NCBI GenBank assembly: GCA_021555105.2
Contig: CP134604.1
Location: forward strand, 2,852,001 to 2,916,000
DNA: 64,000 nucleotides
From: Thalassospiraceae bacterium LMO-JJ14
GTDB taxonomy: Bacteria > Pseudomonadota > Alphaproteobacteria > Rhodospirillales > Casp-alpha2
Reading direction: 5' to 3'
The notes beneath the pieces were generated by a model. The model did not search any database. It was not told the origin of the DNA and worked only from the letters and a program-made list of their open reading frames with translations. A program made the position numbers and the translations under genes. Below are positions 46,423 through 60,361 of the stretch, one piece after another; within the stretch, counting starts at the first letter, position 1; the number at the start of each line of letters is the position of its first letter.

Positions 46423-48204
46423 TTAGTTTGCACCCTCTTGCGGGCACATGTCGGCGGGGTCGATGCCGGCGACCTGAACTGGCGCCTTCATGGCATCGCG
46501 GCGGAACGGCTCGCCCAGTTCCTGGTTAAGCACCACTTCGATGAAGGTGGTTTCACCGTTCTTCATCTGCGCATCGACGGCGGCGGCAAGCTGCTCGGTC
46601 AGTTCCGCCATCGTCGTCACCTGGACGCCTTTGACGCCACAGGCCTTGGCGATATCTGCGTACTTCACATCGAGATCAAGCTCGGTGCCGACGAAGTTGT
46701 CCGCATACCACAGTGTGGTGTTGCGTTTTTCCGCACCCCACTGGTAGTTGCGGAAGATTACCATCGTGACCGGCGGCCACGGATCGCGGCCGATCGCCGT
46801 CATCTCGTTCATGGAGATGCCGAATGCGCCGTCACCGGCAAAGCCGATCACCGGCATGTCCGGTTTTGCTATCTTGGCACCGACAATCGACGGCAGACCG
46901 TATCCGCAGGGGCCGAACAGGCCTGGTGCCAGATAGCGGCGACCATGTTCGAAGGTCGGATAAGCGTTACCGATGGCACAGTTGTTACCGATGTCCGACG
47001 AAATGATCACATCCTTCGGCATTGCCGCCTGAATGGCGCGCCACGCCATGCGCGGCGACATCCGTTCGGGCTGGCTGTTACGGGCACGCTCGTTCCAGGT
47101 GGTGCCCGGATCGTCGTCTTCGTGATCCATCGACGACAGTTGCTGCAGCCAGGCCGAACGGGTCTGGTGGATCAGCTTTTCACGGTCTTCGCGGTCGGCA
47201 TTACCGGCATCTGCAGAAAGCTGCGACAGCAGGCTTTCGGCAACCAGCTTGGCATCGCCCTGAATGGCGACGGTAACTTTCTTGGTCAGACCGATGCGAT
47301 CCGCGTTCATATCGACCTGGATCACCTTGGCATCCTTGGGCCAGTAATCGATACCATACCCCGGCAGGGTCGAGAACGGGTTGAGGCGCGTCCCCAGCGC
47401 GAGAACAACATCGGCCTTGGAGATCAGTTCCATCGCTGCCTTCGAGCCGTTGTAGCCGAGCGGCCCGGCGAATAGCGGATGCGAGCCCGGGAAGGCGTCA
47501 TTGTGCTGATAGCCGCAGCAGACCGGCGCGCTCAGTTTTTCGGCCAGCGCCGCGGATGCCGGGATGCCCCCCGACAGCACCACGCCGGCGCCGTTCAGGA
47601 TGACCGGGAACTTGGCTTCCGACAGCAGCTTGGCAGCATCGGCGATGGCGGCGGCGCCACCGGCCGGGCGTTCCAGCTTCACGGTGTCGGGAATTTCGAT
47701 ATCGACGACCTGGGTCCAGAAATCGCGCGGTACGTTGATCTGTGCCGGGCCGCTACCGCGCCAGGCCTGTTCGATGACGCGGTTCAGTACTTCGGCGATC
47801 CGCGTCGGATCGCGCACTTCTTCCTGATAGCAGACCATGTCCTCGAACAGGGCCATCTGCGGGATTTCCTGAAAACCGCCCTGACCGATGGTCTTGTTGG
47901 CAGCCTGCGGCGTCACCAGAAGCAACGGCGTATGGTTCCAGTATGCGGTTTTGACCGGCGTCACGAAGTTGGTAATGCCCGGGCCGTTCTGCGCGATCAT
48001 CATGCTCATCTTGCCGCTGGATCGGGTGAACCCGTCGGCCATCATGCCGGCATTGCACTCATGCGCGCAGTCCCAGAACGTGATCCCGGCCTTCGGGAAA
48101 ATATCGGACACCGGCATCATGGCCGAGCCAATAATCCCGAACGCATGTTCGATACCATGCTTTTGCAGAACTTTTACGAATGCTTCCTCGGTTGTCATTT
48201 TCAT
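46423..48204 (-). CDS. xsc: Sulfoacetaldehyde acetyltransferase
   Basis: A 593-aa thiamine-diphosphate enzyme that converts sulfoacetaldehyde and phosphate to sulfite and acetyl phosphate, the shared step in taurine, isethionate and sulfoacetate catabolism. Diagnostic Xsc segments include GIEHAFGIIGSAMMPVSDIFP, WDCAHECNAGMMADGF (catalytic-region Glu/His), QNGPGITNFVTPVKTAYWNH and the ThDP motif GFAGDGAFGISMNEMTA. Length matches known Xsc proteins. AAGGAG precedes the ATG at 48204. No pta gene for acetyl phosphate or sulfite exporter is adjacent. Upstream it shares a motif with sauS. Confidence 0.96.
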   Translation of the reverse strand: MKMTTEEAFVKVLQKHGIEHAFGIIGSAMMPVSDIFPKAGITFWDCAHECNAGMMADGFTRSSGKMSMMIAQNGPGITNFVTPVKTAYWNHTPLLLVTPQAANKTIGQGGFQEIPQMALFEDMVCYQEEVRDPTRIAEVLNRVIEQAWRGSGPAQINVPRDFWTQVVDIEIPDTVKLERPAGGAAAIADAAKLLSEAKFPVILNGAGVVLSGGIPASAALAEKLSAPVCCGYQHNDAFPGSHPLFAGPLGYNGSKAAMELISKADVVLALGTRLNPFSTLPGYGIDYWPKDAKVIQVDMNADRIGLTKKVTVAIQGDAKLVAESLLSQLSADAGNADREDREKLIHQTRSAWLQQLSSMDHEDDDPGTTWNERARNSQPERMSPRMAWRAIQAAMPKDVIISSDIGNNCAIGNAYPTFEHGRRYLAPGLFGPCGYGLPSIVGAKIAKPDMPVIGFAGDGAFGISMNEMTAIGRDPWPPVTMVIFRNYQWGAEKRNTTLWYADNFVGTELDLDVKYADIAKACGVKGVQVTTMAELTEQLAAAVDAQMKNGETTFIEVVLNQELGEPFRRDAMKAPVQVAGIDPADMCPQEGAN

Positions 48205-51717: not shown

Positions 51718-53955
51718 ATGTTGAAGTCACAGGCGCATGGCCTGAAAGCGCCGGATCCCGCCGAAATCGCCAAGCGTTTCAGCGCCATCCGCGAACAAAC
51801 GCAAAACCTGGCCCAGCCGCTCAGCGCCGAGGATCAGTGCATCCAGTCGATGCCAGATACCAGCCCGACGAAATGGCATCTGGCACATACCACATGGTTT
51901 TTCGAAACGTTTATCCTGAAATCATACGTCGACGGCTACGCGGTATTCGATCCGAACTACAATTACCTGTTCAATTCCTATTACGAGCAGATCGGCGCCC
52001 GCCATGCGCGGCCCGAACGCGGCATGCTGACGCGCCCGCCGCTCAGTGACATTCATGCCTTTCGTGCGCATGTCGATGCCGGGATGAAGGCCTATCTGGA
52101 AACCTCCCCGGCGCCCGACGTGCTCAACCTGATCGAGCTTGGCCTGCAGCACGAGCAGCAACATCAGGAACTTCTGCTCACCGACATCAAACACGCGCTT
52201 TCGATGAACCCGCTTTTCCCCGCCTACCACCGGCCCAGGCCGATGGATGCGACGCGCAACCGCGAAACAGGCTGGGCCGATCATCCGGGCGGCCTTGTCG
52301 AAATCGGCCACAAGGAAGGCGGCTTCGCTTTCGATTGCGAGGGGCCGCGCCACAAGGTCTGGCTGGAGCCGTTCCGTCTGGCGACGCACCCGGTGTCCAA
52401 CGGCGAATATGTTCGCTTCATCGAGGACGGCGGTTATCGAACCGCGGAGCTATGGCTGTCGGACGGCTGGGCGAAGTGTCAGGAAGACGGCTGGCAGGCC
52501 CCGATGTACTGGCAGAAAGGCGATGATGGCGCGTGGCGGATTTTCACGCTCGCGGGCCTGCGCCCCGTCGATCCGGATTCCCCGGTGTGTCACGTCAGCT
52601 ATTACGAGGCCGACGCCTTCGCCCGCTGGGCCGGCGCGCGGCTGGCGCGCGAGGCGGAATGGGAAGCCGTCGCCGCCGAACAGCATATGACCGGGAATTT
52701 CGCCGGCACCGGAATCTATCACCCGATGCCCGCGCCCACCGGCGGGCTGGCGCAGATGTTCGGTGATGTCTGGGAATGGACGGGGAGCGCCTACGACGCC
52801 TACCCGGGCTACCGTCCGGCCGAAGGTGCGGTCGGCGAATACAACGGCAAGTTCATGTCGGGACAGATGGTGCTGCGGGGCGGCTCCTGCGTCACGCCCG
52901 AAGCGCACATCCGCGCATCGTACCGGAACTTCTTTCATCCCTGGGCACGCTGGCAGTTTTCGGGCATCCGCCTCGCCGACGATGCCCCGGCGTCCCGCGT
53001 CGGCGCGGACGCCCCGGCAGACGGCAGCGAAGCGACGTTTCTGCACGATGTCGTCACCGGCCTTTCCGCGACGCCGAAGCGTTTGTCGCCGAAATATTTC
53101 TACGATGCCGAGGGGGCGCGGCTGTTTACGGAAATCTGCGAACTGGACGAGTATTATCCGACACGCACCGAAATGGGCATCCTGAGCAGTAACGCGGACG
53201 ACATCGCGGCCAAGCTCGGCCCCGACGTGATGCTGATCGAATACGGCTCCGGCGCGCTCGACAAGGTGCGTATCCTGCTCGATGCGCTGCACGATCCGGT
53301 GTCGCTGTGCGCGATCGACATTTCCGCCGAGCAACTGCAACAGGCGGCCGATGACGTCCGCGCCGCTTATCCAGATCTTGAAGTCCTCGCTGTCGAGGCT
53401 GACTTCACCCATGCCGTCGATCTGCCGCTGCCGAAGCGCAGCCCGAAAGCACGGGTCGCGTTCTTCCCCGGCTCGACCATCGGCAATTTCGACCCCGCCG
53501 ACGCCGAAGCCTTTCTTGCCGGTATCCGCCAGACCGTCGGGCGCCACGGCATGCTGGTGATCGGTGTCGATCTGAAAAAGGACGCAGGCCGCCTCGTCGA
53601 TGCCTATGACGACGCTCAGGGGATCACGGAAGCATTCAACAAGAACCTGCTGACGCGCATCAACAATGAACTGGATGGTGATTTCAACCCGTCGCTGTTC
53701 CGCCATATCGCGCGTTACAATGCGCTCGCCGGCCGGGTCGAGATGCATCTCGAAAGCTGCACCGACCAGACCGTCCACGTCGGCGGGACCGGCTTTCACT
53801 TCAGCGCCGGCGAGACCATACACACCGAGAATTCATACAAGTTCACGCCTGAGGAATTCGAGGCCATGGCGCAGGCGGCGGGCTTCGCCAAGCTCGCCAT
53901 GTGGTGCGATGCGGACAATCTGTTCGCGGTCATGCTGCTGCGCGTCAGGACATAA
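51718..53955 (+). CDS. Ergothioneine biosynthesis EgtB-EgtD fusion
   Basis: A single 745-aa chain combining two ergothioneine enzymes. Residues about 15-165 form the DinB-like domain with iron ligands in WHLAHTTWF (His54/57) and HEQQHQE (His145, His149). Residues about 190-425 are an FGE-sulfatase domain (GDVWEWTGSAY, LRGGSCVTPEAHIRASYRNFF), completing the EgtB sulfoxide synthase. A short Ala/Asp-rich linker leads to EgtD, the histidine trimethylase, from about 440 (YFYDAEGARLFTEICELDEY, SAM-motif EYGSGALDKVRILLDAL). The frame is continuous. Fungal Egt1 has the reverse order, EgtD then EgtB. EgtA, EgtC and EgtE are not in the window. Confidence 0.93.
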   Translation: MLKSQAHGLKAPDPAEIAKRFSAIREQTQNLAQPLSAEDQCIQSMPDTSPTKWHLAHTTWFFETFILKSYVDGYAVFDPNYNYLFNSYYEQIGARHARPERGMLTRPPLSDIHAFRAHVDAGMKAYLETSPAPDVLNLIELGLQHEQQHQELLLTDIKHALSMNPLFPAYHRPRPMDATRNRETGWADHPGGLVEIGHKEGGFAFDCEGPRHKVWLEPFRLATHPVSNGEYVRFIEDGGYRTAELWLSDGWAKCQEDGWQAPMYWQKGDDGAWRIFTLAGLRPVDPDSPVCHVSYYEADAFARWAGARLAREAEWEAVAAEQHMTGNFAGTGIYHPMPAPTGGLAQMFGDVWEWTGSAYDAYPGYRPAEGAVGEYNGKFMSGQMVLRGGSCVTPEAHIRASYRNFFHPWARWQFSGIRLADDAPASRVGADAPADGSEATFLHDVVTGLSATPKRLSPKYFYDAEGARLFTEICELDEYYPTRTEMGILSSNADDIAAKLGPDVMLIEYGSGALDKVRILLDALHDPVSLCAIDISAEQLQQAADDVRAAYPDLEVLAVEADFTHAVDLPLPKRSPKARVAFFPGSTIGNFDPADAEAFLAGIRQTVGRHGMLVIGVDLKKDAGRLVDAYDDAQGITEAFNKNLLTRINNELDGDFNPSLFRHIARYNALAGRVEMHLESCTDQTVHVGGTGFHFSAGETIHTENSYKFTPEEFEAMAQAAGFAKLAMWCDADNLFAVMLLRVRT

Positions 53956-54079: not shown

Positions 54080-54910
54080 CTACAACTTGCCGGTATTGTT
54101 CTCGGCGCCGTGATACAGGACTTCGCGGAATGCCTGCGTGGCGCGTTCATGGAAAGCCACCGCGGCGGCGTCGAAGTCGTGCGCCGGGACCGGTGTCGGC
54201 TCGAAGTGACCGAACGGATCTTCGCCCCGCACCAGCGCCGCGCTGTCCCATGAGCCGACGATCTGTTCCGTTTCCGGCGGCATGAAGTGCATGGAAACGC
54301 CGATCCGCCGGTCGGGCGCATTGTTCGGCCCCGACGCGTGCGCGATCCGGTAGTTGTGAATCGACATCTGACCGGGTTGGAGCGGCATGAACACCGCATC
54401 CTCGTCGCGGGGCACGTTCGAGAGTTCCTGCCCGCGAGTCAGCATATTGTCCTCGTTGTAACGTTCGTCGTGTTCCAGAATATCGCCCCGGTGCGAGCCC
54501 GGCAGCACTTTCATGCACCCGGCTTCGATGCTTGCCGGGGACAGCGCCACCCAGGCGGTCACCACCTTGTCGCTGGAAAGCCCCCAGTACTTGGTGTCCT
54601 GATGCCAGCCGACAAAAGACCTGTGATCGGCTTCCTTGATCCAGAAAAGCGTGTTCCAGCAGAGGATATTCGGGCCGATCAGTTGTTCGACCGGATCGAG
54701 AACGCGCGGATCGCGGATCAGGTCATCGAGCCACTTGAAAAGAAGGTGCCCTTTCGAGCGCTGCCCGGGCAACAGCTTGCCGCCGTGCTTCGCTTCTTCC
54801 GCCTGAAGTTGCGCACGAATATCCGCAACCTCGGAAGAATCAAGGATATCGACGGGAAAAACATACCCGTCGCGGTGAAACTGTTCGATATCGGATGCTG
54901 TCAGCGTCAT
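54080..54910 (-). CDS. Phytanoyl-CoA dioxygenase (PhyH)-family protein
   Basis: A 276-aa Fe(II)/2-oxoglutarate dioxygenase of the PhyH family. Iron ligands are in VGWHQDTKYWG (His-x-Asp) and HNYRIAHASGPN (distal His), with the 2OG-binding Arg in DRRIGVSMHF. I considered ectoine hydroxylase because ectABC is present, but the EctD signature (WHSDFETWH) is missing. Many marine relatives act on small natural products or quaternary amines. It is convergent with egtBD and divergent from the SulP gene. Confidence 0.87.
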   Translation of the reverse strand: MTLTASDIEQFHRDGYVFPVDILDSSEVADIRAQLQAEEAKHGGKLLPGQRSKGHLLFKWLDDLIRDPRVLDPVEQLIGPNILCWNTLFWIKEADHRSFVGWHQDTKYWGLSSDKVVTAWVALSPASIEAGCMKVLPGSHRGDILEHDERYNEDNMLTRGQELSNVPRDEDAVFMPLQPGQMSIHNYRIAHASGPNNAPDRRIGVSMHFMPPETEQIVGSWDSAALVRGEDPFGHFEPTPVPAHDFDAAAVAFHERATQAFREVLYHGAENNTGKL

Positions 54911-56701: not shown

Positions 56702-57796
56702 CTAGGGAACGATTGCCGCGCGCAAAACCGAACGGTCCGATGCCCGTGCGAACGCTTCGTCCAGTTGATCGAGCGAAAACTTGGAATCGACAAGATCGCC
56801 GAACGGAAAGCGGTCGCGATTGCTCATCACGAAATCAAGCGCCTGTATCAGGTGGCGCGGATGATAATTGTGGACCCCCTTGATATTGATCCAGCCGCGC
56901 AGGATCTGATTGCCGTCGATCGTGAATGTTGCATCCGGATTGACCAATCCGCCGATAACGTAACAGCCGCCGACCCTGAGCATGCGGATGCCAATCGGCA
57001 CCACATCCGGATAGCCGCAGACCTCGATACCGACATCCGCACCGTCGGGCGGGCATTCGGCCCGCACGGCAGCGACCAGTTCGTCATCGCTCATTTTCGA
57101 AACATCGAATGTCACATCGGCGCCGAAGCGCTCCGCGATTTCCAGCCGGCTGGCCACGGTATCCAGACCGATGACCCGCCTTGCACCGCGCGCCTTGGCA
57201 ATCGCGCAGCCGTAAAGCCCGAGAAGGCCGAGCCCCTGCACCACAACGGTATCGCCGATATCGATGGCCGCGGCTTCGGTCACCGAAATCATCGTCGCCA
57301 CGCCGCAGTTGAGCGGCGTCGCCTCTTCGTCGCTGATCTCGTCGGGCAATTTGAGAATCCCCGTCCCCGGCAGGATGTAGCAGTACTCGGCGAACCCGCC
57401 GAGGAAATGCGGATCATCTTCCGCCAAATCGTGACCGTATTTACGCAGGCCCTTGGATTTCTGCGGCATGTCGTGAACATCGCGGTAATACGACGGCCCA
57501 TGATGAAAGAACTCGGTCCAGGTAACCCGGTCGCCGATATTCAGCGTATCGCCTCGCATGTCGTGGGTAATCGTGTGCCCAAGCTGCTCTATAACGCCGA
57601 CGATCTCATGGCCGAGAATACCGGGACACGGGTTCGGCCGGTGCCCCTGATAGGAATGAATATCGGAGCGGCAGATCGTCGACATGGTGATCCGTACCAG
57701 CACCTCGTCAGGCGTGACATCGCGAACCGGATAGTCGCGGACTTTGAACGGTGCATTGGGAGCGTCATATACGACGGCGCGTCCTGTTTTTGACAT
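56702..57796 (-). CDS. Phosphonate-cluster medium-chain alcohol dehydrogenase
   Basis: A 364-aa zinc-dependent MDR alcohol dehydrogenase resembling the group linked to phosphonate catabolism. Catalytic zinc ligands are in ICRSDIHSYQGH and GHEIVG; the NAD motif is VVVQGLGLLGLYGCAIAKA. The loop that normally carries four structural-zinc cysteines reads TEFFHHGPSYYRDVHD and has none of them. The start at 57796 follows GGAG. It lies at the end of the phnDCEE-type operon, 102 bp after the second phnE, so it likely oxidises or reduces an aldehyde from the imported compound. Confidence 0.85.
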   Translation of the reverse strand: MSKTGRAVVYDAPNAPFKVRDYPVRDVTPDEVLVRITMSTICRSDIHSYQGHRPNPCPGILGHEIVGVIEQLGHTITHDMRGDTLNIGDRVTWTEFFHHGPSYYRDVHDMPQKSKGLRKYGHDLAEDDPHFLGGFAEYCYILPGTGILKLPDEISDEEATPLNCGVATMISVTEAAAIDIGDTVVVQGLGLLGLYGCAIAKARGARRVIGLDTVASRLEIAERFGADVTFDVSKMSDDELVAAVRAECPPDGADVGIEVCGYPDVVPIGIRMLRVGGCYVIGGLVNPDATFTIDGNQILRGWINIKGVHNYHPRHLIQALDFVMSNRDRFPFGDLVDSKFSLDQLDEAFARASDRSVLRAAIVP

Positions 57797-57898
57797 TTTG
57801 GTTACTCCAGCTTCTGTAAGGCACACCGCCACATGAACTTCGGTCGTGAATTCAGGCTTCCGGCGGCACACCCGCCGGCAAGTTAAAGTGAAAGAAAG

Positions 57899-58744
57899 CT
57901 ATTTCATCTTCATCACAGCATTTCTTGCCCAGGCGGAAAGCGCTTCCGAGATGATCACCAGCACAATGATCGACAGGATGATTGCCGCCACGCGCTCGGT
58001 TTCGATCTGCAGAACGTTACGCTTGAGATACCAGCCCATACCGCCGGCGCCGAAGAACCCGACCACCGTCGCCGCACGAAACGCCACATCCCAGGTGTAT
58101 ATCGCGATCCCGGTGAAGGCGACGCGGACCTGCGGCCAGACACCGAACACCATCACCTGAAACAGATTTGCGCCGGTTGCCCGCATGGCCTCGACTGGCC
58201 CCATATCGACGGATTCGATTTCCTCGGCAAACAGCTTGGCCGCGAAACCGGCACTGAACAGTGTCAGTGCAAGAACGCCGGGCAGCATCCCGAAGCCCAG
58301 GATCGACACAAACAGGATTGCCCAGATGGTTTCGTGCACGGCGCGGCACGACATACCGAAAAGACGCGCAACCGGGTACACGAACAGACGGCTTGGCGTC
58401 ATGTTATATGACGCGAACCAGGCAACCGGAATCGTGATGATGAGACCGAACAACGCGCCCAGGTACGCCATCTGGATGGTCTCGACGACATATTCGAAAT
58501 AGTCGCGGTCCATGATGTATTCGATATCCGGCGGATAGTAACGCGACGCCAGAATGTCGCCCATCCGGCCCAGCATGCCGAACAGCCGGTCGAGTGGAAT
58601 GTCCAGATACTCGATACTGAACACCACCACCGTGAACGCGAGCAGCCAGGCACCATAGGCGTAAAGGGAATCCGGATAGCGAAAGCGGCGCCATTTAAGG
58701 CGTTTGCCGTCGCCGAACAGGGTGATCGTTTCGTTTTCAGCCAT
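57899..58744 (-). CDS. phnE: Phosphonate-type ABC permease, second copy
   Basis: A 281-aa inner-membrane permease with about six helices. It shows the binding-protein-dependent transport signature around EEIESVDMGPVEAMRATGAN and the long first periplasmic loop typical of PhnE. It lies 12 bp after the other PhnE gene. The two proteins differ strongly outside the core, so they probably form a heterodimeric channel, as in other PhnE1/PhnE2 systems. Confidence 0.9.
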   Translation of the reverse strand: MAENETITLFGDGKRLKWRRFRYPDSLYAYGAWLLAFTVVVFSIEYLDIPLDRLFGMLGRMGDILASRYYPPDIEYIMDRDYFEYVVETIQMAYLGALFGLIITIPVAWFASYNMTPSRLFVYPVARLFGMSCRAVHETIWAILFVSILGFGMLPGVLALTLFSAGFAAKLFAEEIESVDMGPVEAMRATGANLFQVMVFGVWPQVRVAFTGIAIYTWDVAFRAATVVGFFGAGGMGWYLKRNVLQIETERVAAIILSIIVLVIISEALSAWARNAVMKMK

Positions 58745-58756
58745 CGTCGCGGGTTC

Positions 58757-59599
58757 CTATATCAGACGCCGGCGGATGAAATACGACACCGCCTCGCCCA
58801 GCAGAATGATGATCAGAATGGCAAGGATGACCGTCGTCACCCCGTGATAATTGAACGTGTTCATCTGCCGGAAGAACACCAGCCCGAGGCCGCCGGCCCC
58901 GACCAGACCGAGGATCGCCGAACGGCGGATATTAATTTCCCATTCGAAGATGACGACGCTGACGATTTGCGGCAGCACTTGCGGCAGAATGGCGTAGATT
59001 ATGATCTGCAAGGGCGAACCGCCGACGGCGCGGATTGCTTCGACCGGGCCATGATCGATATCCTCGATCGCTTCTGCCGACATCTTGGCGATAAACCCGA
59101 CCGAGCGGACGGCAATTGCCATCACGCCGGCCATGGCGCCAAGTCCGACCACGGCAACGAAGAACAATGCCCAGACGATCTCATGGATCGAGCGACTGAG
59201 CGTCATCATGAGGCGCGCCAGCGGATAGGTAACGGGCTTGTACGGCGTGATGTTCATGGCCCCGAACCACGCAGCCGGCACACACAGGATAAGACCGAAA
59301 AACGTCCCCAGACAGGCAATCAGCAGGGTTTCCAGCGCCGGCACCATGAGTGTGCCGAAAAGCTCGAAATCGATGCCGATGAAGCGGCTTGTCGCTTCCC
59401 ATACCTTTTCAACGCTGCCGATGCGTTCCCAGTCCGTGTCCTGGATGACCGTAACGTCGATACTCCACGCAACCAGCGCCAGCAGAACAACGGTGGCGCC
59501 TGCCGAGAACATACGGCTGCGCCGCCGCTTTTCGACGACACCGTCCGCGACCGCGGCCAGCGAGCCTTTGAGATTGGGTTTCAGGGGTGCTGATGCCAT
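58757..59599 (-). CDS. phnE: Phosphonate-type ABC permease, first copy
   Basis: A 280-aa permease with about six membrane helices. The coupling motif is AEAIEDIDHGPVEAIRAVGGS, and the RSIHEIVWALFFVAVVGLG segment matches the equivalent SCRAVHETIWAILFVSILGFG region in the second permease, confirming common ancestry. GAGGGAT precedes the ATG. It follows phnC by 9 bp. Confidence 0.9.
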   Translation of the reverse strand: MASAPLKPNLKGSLAAVADGVVEKRRRSRMFSAGATVVLLALVAWSIDVTVIQDTDWERIGSVEKVWEATSRFIGIDFELFGTLMVPALETLLIACLGTFFGLILCVPAAWFGAMNITPYKPVTYPLARLMMTLSRSIHEIVWALFFVAVVGLGAMAGVMAIAVRSVGFIAKMSAEAIEDIDHGPVEAIRAVGGSPLQIIIYAILPQVLPQIVSVVIFEWEINIRRSAILGLVGAGGLGLVFFRQMNTFNYHGVTTVILAILIIILLGEAVSYFIRRRLI

Positions 59600-59608
59600 G
59601 ATGATCCC

Positions 59609-60361
59609 TCAGAGCACTTCCATGGCATAAATCTCGCCAAGTTTTTCTTCGTTCATCAGTTCCGTCACGCCCGAGAACATGGTCACGCCGTCCTGCAGAC
59701 CGATGATCTTGTTACAGAACTCCTGTGCCAGCTTGACGTCGTGAATATTGCAAAGGCACGGCACCTTGAGTTCCTGCGCCATCTGCTTGATCAGTGCCAT
59801 GACCTCGCGCGAAATCTTCGGATCGAGCGCCGAGGTTGGCTCGTCGAGCAGCATCAGTTTCGGATTCTGCATCAATGCACGCGCGATTCCGACCCGCTGG
59901 CGTTGACCGCCGGACAGCTCGTCGGCGCGTTTGTCGACGTGATCGATCAGGCCGACACGTTCGAGCAGCATCAACGCATGGTCGATATCCTTGCGCGGAA
60001 AGGCCCGGAACAGGGTGCGCAGATCGGACGTATACCCGAGGCGGCCGGACAACACGTTGTCCATGACGCTCATCCGGTTGATGAGATTGAATTCCTGGAA
60101 AATCATGCCGATGTCACGGCGCAGACGCCTAAGCTCTCGCCGGCGTAGTGCCGTCACGTTGCGCCCGTCGAAAACGATACTGCCGGACGTCGGCTCGACA
60201 AGCCGGTTGATGCAGCGGATCAGGGTCGACTTGCCGGCGCCGCTGGGGCCGATAATCGCAAAGAAATCATTGTCTTCGACTTCGAATGAGATCCCCTTGA
60301 GGATTTCCGGGCCTGAGGCGCTGTAGCGCGCGCGTAGATCGCTGACTTGTAGGACAGCCAT
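59609..60361 (-). CDS. phnC: Phosphonate-type ABC transporter ATPase
   Basis: A 250-aa ABC ATPase. Walker A is GPSGAGKST, the Q-loop lies in GMIFQEFNLINR, the signature is LSGGQRQR, Walker B is LMLLDEP and the switch His is NIHD. The RELRRLRRDIGMIFQ region is typical of PhnC. AGGAA precedes the ATG. The binding-protein gene is upstream, separated by a 118-bp hairpin-bearing gap. Confidence 0.93.
   Translation of the reverse strand: MAVLQVSDLRARYSASGPEILKGISFEVEDNDFFAIIGPSGAGKSTLIRCINRLVEPTSGSIVFDGRNVTALRRRELRRLRRDIGMIFQEFNLINRMSVMDNVLSGRLGYTSDLRTLFRAFPRKDIDHALMLLERVGLIDHVDKRADELSGGQRQRVGIARALMQNPKLMLLDEPTSALDPKISREVMALIKQMAQELKVPCLCNIHDVKLAQEFCNKIIGLQDGVTMFSGVTELMNEEKLGEIYAMEVL

Follow-up and report, generated by a model that had tools for sequence, protein, structure and literature searches.

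Can two consecutive steps of ergothioneine biosynthesis be entrusted in a bacterium to one polypeptide, and what would the join between them bring? The question is raised by a single open reading frame in a 64,000-nucleotide stretch of the Thalassospiraceae bacterium LMO-JJ14 chromosome (contig CP134604.1, positions 2,852,001 to 2,916,000 of the forward strand), hereafter called the window. The frame is laid out as follows.

51718..53955, + strand: fused egtB-egtD open reading frame, 745 aa from an ATG, no internal stop
51778..52170, + strand: DinB-like part of EgtB, residues 21-151, with a HEQQH motif (Pfam, alignment)
52276..52977, + strand: FGE-type part of EgtB, residues 187-420, C-terminus RWQFSGIRLA
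52984..53037, + strand: linker between the modules, residues 423-440, 18 codons (sister-species alignment, structure model)
53038..53946, + strand: EgtD histidine methyltransferase, residues 441-743 (NCBIfam, Pfam, alignment)

The original prediction of a complete EgtB (DinB-like plus FGE domain) followed by a complete EgtD is borne out by the NCBIfam models, both of which clear their cut-offs: TIGR03440 (EgtB) scores 587.3 bits against 360 over residues 18-420, covering positions 2-413 of the 413 in the model, and TIGR03438 (EgtD) scores 390.7 bits against 290.9 over residues 441-740. Pfam places DinB_2 at residues 21-151, the best FGE-sulfatase stretch at 187-320 and Methyltransf_33 at 443-742, and the RWQFSGIRLA that ends the FGE-type part is the usual EgtB C-terminus. 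The host genome, a single 3.89-Mb contig that is 99.16% complete, carries one copy of the fused gene and one Methyltransf_33 gene. Between codons 395 and 470 there is no in-frame ATG or GTG, and the sole TTG (codon 456) lies within the EgtD domain, so a separate start for the EgtD module is implausible. Elsewhere, the linkers of several fused genes contain GTG, TTG or ATG codons, and internal initiation may thus occur in those genes.

To which kind of EgtB does the N-terminal module belong? Its best match among PDB sequences is the enzyme from Chloracidobacterium thermophilum, EgtB_Cth (528 bits over residues 18-422, vs. 146 bits for mycobacterial EgtB), and its predicted fold superposes on that enzyme with a TMt of ~0.95 at 53-56% identity. 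The alignment assigns H57, H145 and H149, which we take to be the iron ligands, and the tyrosines Y88 and Y89. All seven hercynine- and donor-binding residues named for EgtB_Cth (Asp52, Arg103, Arg106, Gln156, Asn414, Phe415, and Ala420, in the consulted parts of PMC9103826) are identical in the window (D47, R98, R101, Q148, N404, F405, and A410). Together with the closeness to EgtB_Cth, this identifies the EgtB half as a predicted cysteine-using type II enzyme.

The sulfur donor deserves some care. Chloracidobacterium type II EgtB is described as taking cysteine and not gamma-glutamylcysteine (PMC11993508, in part), but EgtB_Cth is also credited with both EgtB- and Egt1-type activity (PMC9103826), so the type of EgtB does not by itself fix the donor. 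No EgtC scores above cut-off anywhere in the genome (the best score is 26.7 bits, from a frame of 612 aa); the trimming step for a gamma-glutamylcysteine-derived ergothioneine adduct is thus missing, which favours cysteine. The genome also encodes a plant-type glutamate-cysteine ligase (699 bits; with the EgtA model it reaches 149, short of the cut-off), besides a YbdK-type ligase. Gamma-glutamylcysteine is therefore probably made in the host, and the presence of the glutamate-cysteine ligase keeps it a possible donor. On the strength of type II identity and the genome-wide lack of an EgtC above cut-off, cysteine is the likely donor, as had been proposed. The reason then given, that EgtA and EgtC are not encoded nearby, is weak, because egtA, C and E also lie far off in Methylobacterium (PMC4621440, in part).

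The C-terminal module can be placed too. Among PDB sequences it matches M. smegmatis EgtD (216 bits), its predicted fold agrees with EgtD structures at a TMt of ~0.9, and the six key histidine-binding residues listed in the part of PMC8593015 consulted (Tyr39, Tyr56, Asn166, Tyr206, Glu282, and Ser284) are all matched in the alignment (Y462, Y479, N590, Y630, E704, and S706). No EgtE scores above cut-off in the genome: the best match, a PLP enzyme (L033), reaches 154.5 bits against 400 and was not accepted, since it fits SufS better (182 bits, also below the SufS cut-off). With a probability of roughly 0.85, we read the 745-aa protein as a bifunctional ergothioneine-biosynthesis enzyme, its two modules on a flexible linker, whose fusion goes back to the loss of the egtB stop. 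Judging from the families and the conserved active-site residues, both modules are predicted to be catalytic. The EgtD module would trimethylate histidine with SAM to give hercynine, the type II EgtB module would then use iron, O2 and most likely cysteine to convert hercynine to hercynylcysteine sulfoxide, and a separate PLP lyase would finish ergothioneine.

How common is such a gene? Among 149 loci, 140 have an EgtB match. Both modules share one frame in 21 of these (among which the window and one other genome each appear twice), 114 have them on the same strand without a shared frame (110 with egtB first, 4 with egtD first), and in the remaining 5 no EgtD match was found within the fetched stretch. 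Once extra copies are removed, together with L007 and L044, which were not counted because a frame change has cost them the conserved EgtB C-terminus, 17 distinct fused genomes are left, the window included. Six further ones were confirmed (L156, L162, L165, L166, L168, and L169), which brings the total to 23 with the window and 22 without, some of which may be near-identical species. The search for the same domain order suggested in the original prediction has thus yielded 22 additional fused genomes. G303 (L167), apparently fused by the length of its open frame, was rejected for a stop between the modules. The 80 genome-contig loci are the best-scoring 80 of 587 and an unfair sample, as in-frame pairs probably rank high there. 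Two more even samples were drawn, a strong match being one at E <= 1e-100: 95 of 386 genomes of the class have such a match, 8 of them fused, and 96 of 397 genomes of the phylum, 9 of them fused, the window counting in each. All of these are full-length and stop-free with the junction checked, and the samples overlap (with the window, G138 and G339 as fused members of each). Unfused genes dominate both samples, in keeping with the expectation that separate genes are the usual bacterial state. Among plasmid records, 64 carry a match, and wherever gene names appear in the 40 rows listed, egtB and egtD are annotated separately. In the portions of the literature searched, to which Jones et al. 2014 does not belong, no description of a bacterial B-to-D EgtB-EgtD fusion was found.

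Comparison with split relatives suggests how the fusion came about. Their EgtB ends at the same RLA point and egtD mostly starts within tens of bases, while fused genes have a variable linker in place of the egtB stop; the fusion probably arose when neighbouring egtB and egtD genes in an ancestor lost that stop. On a 130-row tree (the window and 129 of the 140 loci, with extra copies, EgtD-less loci and short rows excluded), the fused state requires at least 3 changes when the two frame-change rows are not scored as fused. Trees of 69 rows require 5 changes for EgtB and 3 for EgtD, with starred branches forcing 2 in each, and an EgtD tree of 43 rows, two of them stand-alone copies from the window's genus, requires 4; none of these counts separates gains from losses. 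The window's clade comprises four members of its genus and a SAR116 genome (L040), and a split pair from the same family (L009) is near kin to it. A separate set of 11 fused rows includes Phenylobacterium, another Caulobacteraceae genome and Pseudomonas sp. KNUC1026, with a split row (L049) beside or inside it in the EgtD trees. The trees thus point to a fusion that recurs in several bacterial lineages. On the trees the L040 fusion clusters with those of the window's genus, and the ~5 kb around it yielded none of the genes that neighbour the fusion in the window; horizontal transfer is a possible origin.

What does the join do? The AlphaFold2 model has a mean pLDDT of 91.5 and a pTM of 0.63, with residues 426-435 below 50. 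It was computed from a 75-row alignment in which only 17 rows are fused and the rest are single modules, which limits what it could learn about packing. A fold search retrieves EgtB_Cth and EgtD as separate matches. The model describes two well-modelled domains with a linker predicted to be disordered and a relative placement left undefined. The linker is not conserved in sequence either: over its 18 codons, all of which align, the window's amino-acid identity is 22% to each of the three sister species. These results bear on the idea that the fusion channels hercynine, handing it directly from EgtD to EgtB. In its favour, the two modules catalyse consecutive steps, and the fusion recurs across trees. 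Structural support was sought in the AlphaFold2 model and none was found; with a disordered, variable linker, undefined packing (pTM 0.63) and unfused genes dominating the genome samples, channelling is unlikely, and this part of the original prediction is not upheld. On the preferred reading of a bifunctional enzyme, two independently folded modules would remain joined by a flexible linker, and the benefit would likely lie in a constant 1:1 expression ratio and in the nearness of the modules, not in a closed channel. It is doubtful, if conceivable, that bacteria repeatedly built a single protein that takes histidine to hercynylcysteine sulfoxide, its modules in the reverse of the fungal order, and that hercynine proximity or direct transfer makes it measurably advantageous.

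Is the single frame genuine? In a set of 80 genomes made up of the window's own and its relatives, 58 have some match at E <= 0.001, and within the genus the full-length, stop-free matches are those of the window, G001, G002 and G005. In the last three the fusion is likewise unbroken, 75-77% identical to the window's, and neighbouring genes are shared. In these four species dN is 0.05-0.21 and dS 0.8-1.5 in both modules, which indicates that both halves are under purifying selection. A sequencing or assembly error that joined two genes is thus highly improbable. Such joins do occur, as in L007 and L044, where a change of frame has abolished the EgtB C-terminus and made an apparent fusion, but the window retains RWQFSGIRLA in frame, and independent genomes of three sister species preserve that frame across a fast-evolving linker. 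L007 is the same-family genome G017, and the frame change that swaps out the conserved EgtB C-terminus in L007 and L044 reflects either assembly errors or damaged genes.

Orthologues in close relatives give a mixed answer as to whether they are split: the three sister species are fused, but three other genomes provide partial counter-evidence. G006, of the same genus, has a cupin gene directly followed by a stand-alone EgtD, with EgtB absent there (L150 = G006:C30, 2446-3805), in a neighbourhood that retains the window's 48582-49724 gene, HI0933-like gene and cupin gene. In the 43-row tree, this EgtD branches as the sister of the fused clade. Thus, the EgtD module does not depend on being fused, and G006 may either have lost its EgtB half or represent a stage preceding fusion, probably the former in view of the split B-D pair of L009. 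G004 has a split pair (54% and 44% identity), and G007 is unfused, with a more distant EgtD and other neighbours. In G007, G056, G073 and others there is an EgtB-like protein ~27-36% identical to the window's, in frames of ~430-460 aa that in some cases lie beside egtD. The genes around the fusion in the window include these.

46423-48204, - strand: sulfoacetaldehyde acetyltransferase (Xsc), 942 bits to TIGR03457
51226..51621, + strand: cupin-domain gene directly upstream of the fusion (Pfam), also beside the locus in G001, G002, G005 and G006
54080-54910, - strand: PhyH-family oxygenase (Pfam), with weak chlorinating-enzyme similarity (76 bits, below the cut-off of 226); G001 has a copy next to its fusion
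56702-60361, - strand: phosphonate-type cluster with an alcohol dehydrogenase near the HpnZ model (below cut-off), a PhnE permease and a PhnC ATPase
58757-59599: open reading frame lying among the phosphonate-type cluster genes

Two other identities can be set aside. An OvoA-like ovothiol enzyme, in which the methyltransferase acts on the thiol product of the sulfoxide synthase, would have the same module order, and OvoA_Th2 (8khq) is matched in the fold search; the OvoA N-terminal model TIGR04344 reaches just 98.4 bits against a cut-off of 400, however, 8khq spans the two modules with no more than 16-17% identity and an rmsd of 19 A, and the methyltransferase is an EgtD (391 bits) with conserved histidine-binding residues, so that we give this identity scarcely any credence. 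Selenoneine synthesis by a SenA-type enzyme is just as implausible and was likewise rejected, as the SenA model NF041186 scores 348.5 bits, below its cut-off of 420, and EgtB scores 587.

How, then, does the fusion stand beside known systems? Its N-terminal module is like the type II EgtB of Chloracidobacterium thermophilum (6qki, 6o6l, and 8qf6), and its C-terminal module shares ~40% identity and identical histidine-binding residues with Mycobacterium smegmatis EgtD (4pim and 4uy7), but each of these is a stand-alone protein. Bacterial OvoA (8khq, by its entry title) does combine a sulfoxide synthase and a methyltransferase in one polypeptide. In bacterial OvoA the sulfoxide synthase comes first and the methyltransferase second, the latter belonging to a different family and pathway. 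By this analogy, and taken broadly, the module order would have a bacterial precedent. Both activities are also united in one polypeptide by fungal Egt1 (N. crassa Egt-1 and A. fumigatus EgtA), with cysteine as donor, but in the reverse order: its methyltransferase is N-terminal and its sulfoxide synthase C-terminal (PMC5066259, in part), just as the original prediction had stated. In Methylobacterium aquaticum 22A the same two genes are adjacent, egtB and egtD standing in tandem (PMC4621440, in part), but encode two proteins; the Methylobacterium loci L063 and L065 share the B-D gene order. The fusion is thus a real, recurrent and modest variant of a known enzyme pair, which leaves the known chemistry unchanged. 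The fused gene may offer a compact part for engineered ergothioneine production. It also provides a natural B-to-D fusion to set beside the D-to-B fungal Egt1 and beside OvoA, making module order and linkage testable within one pathway.
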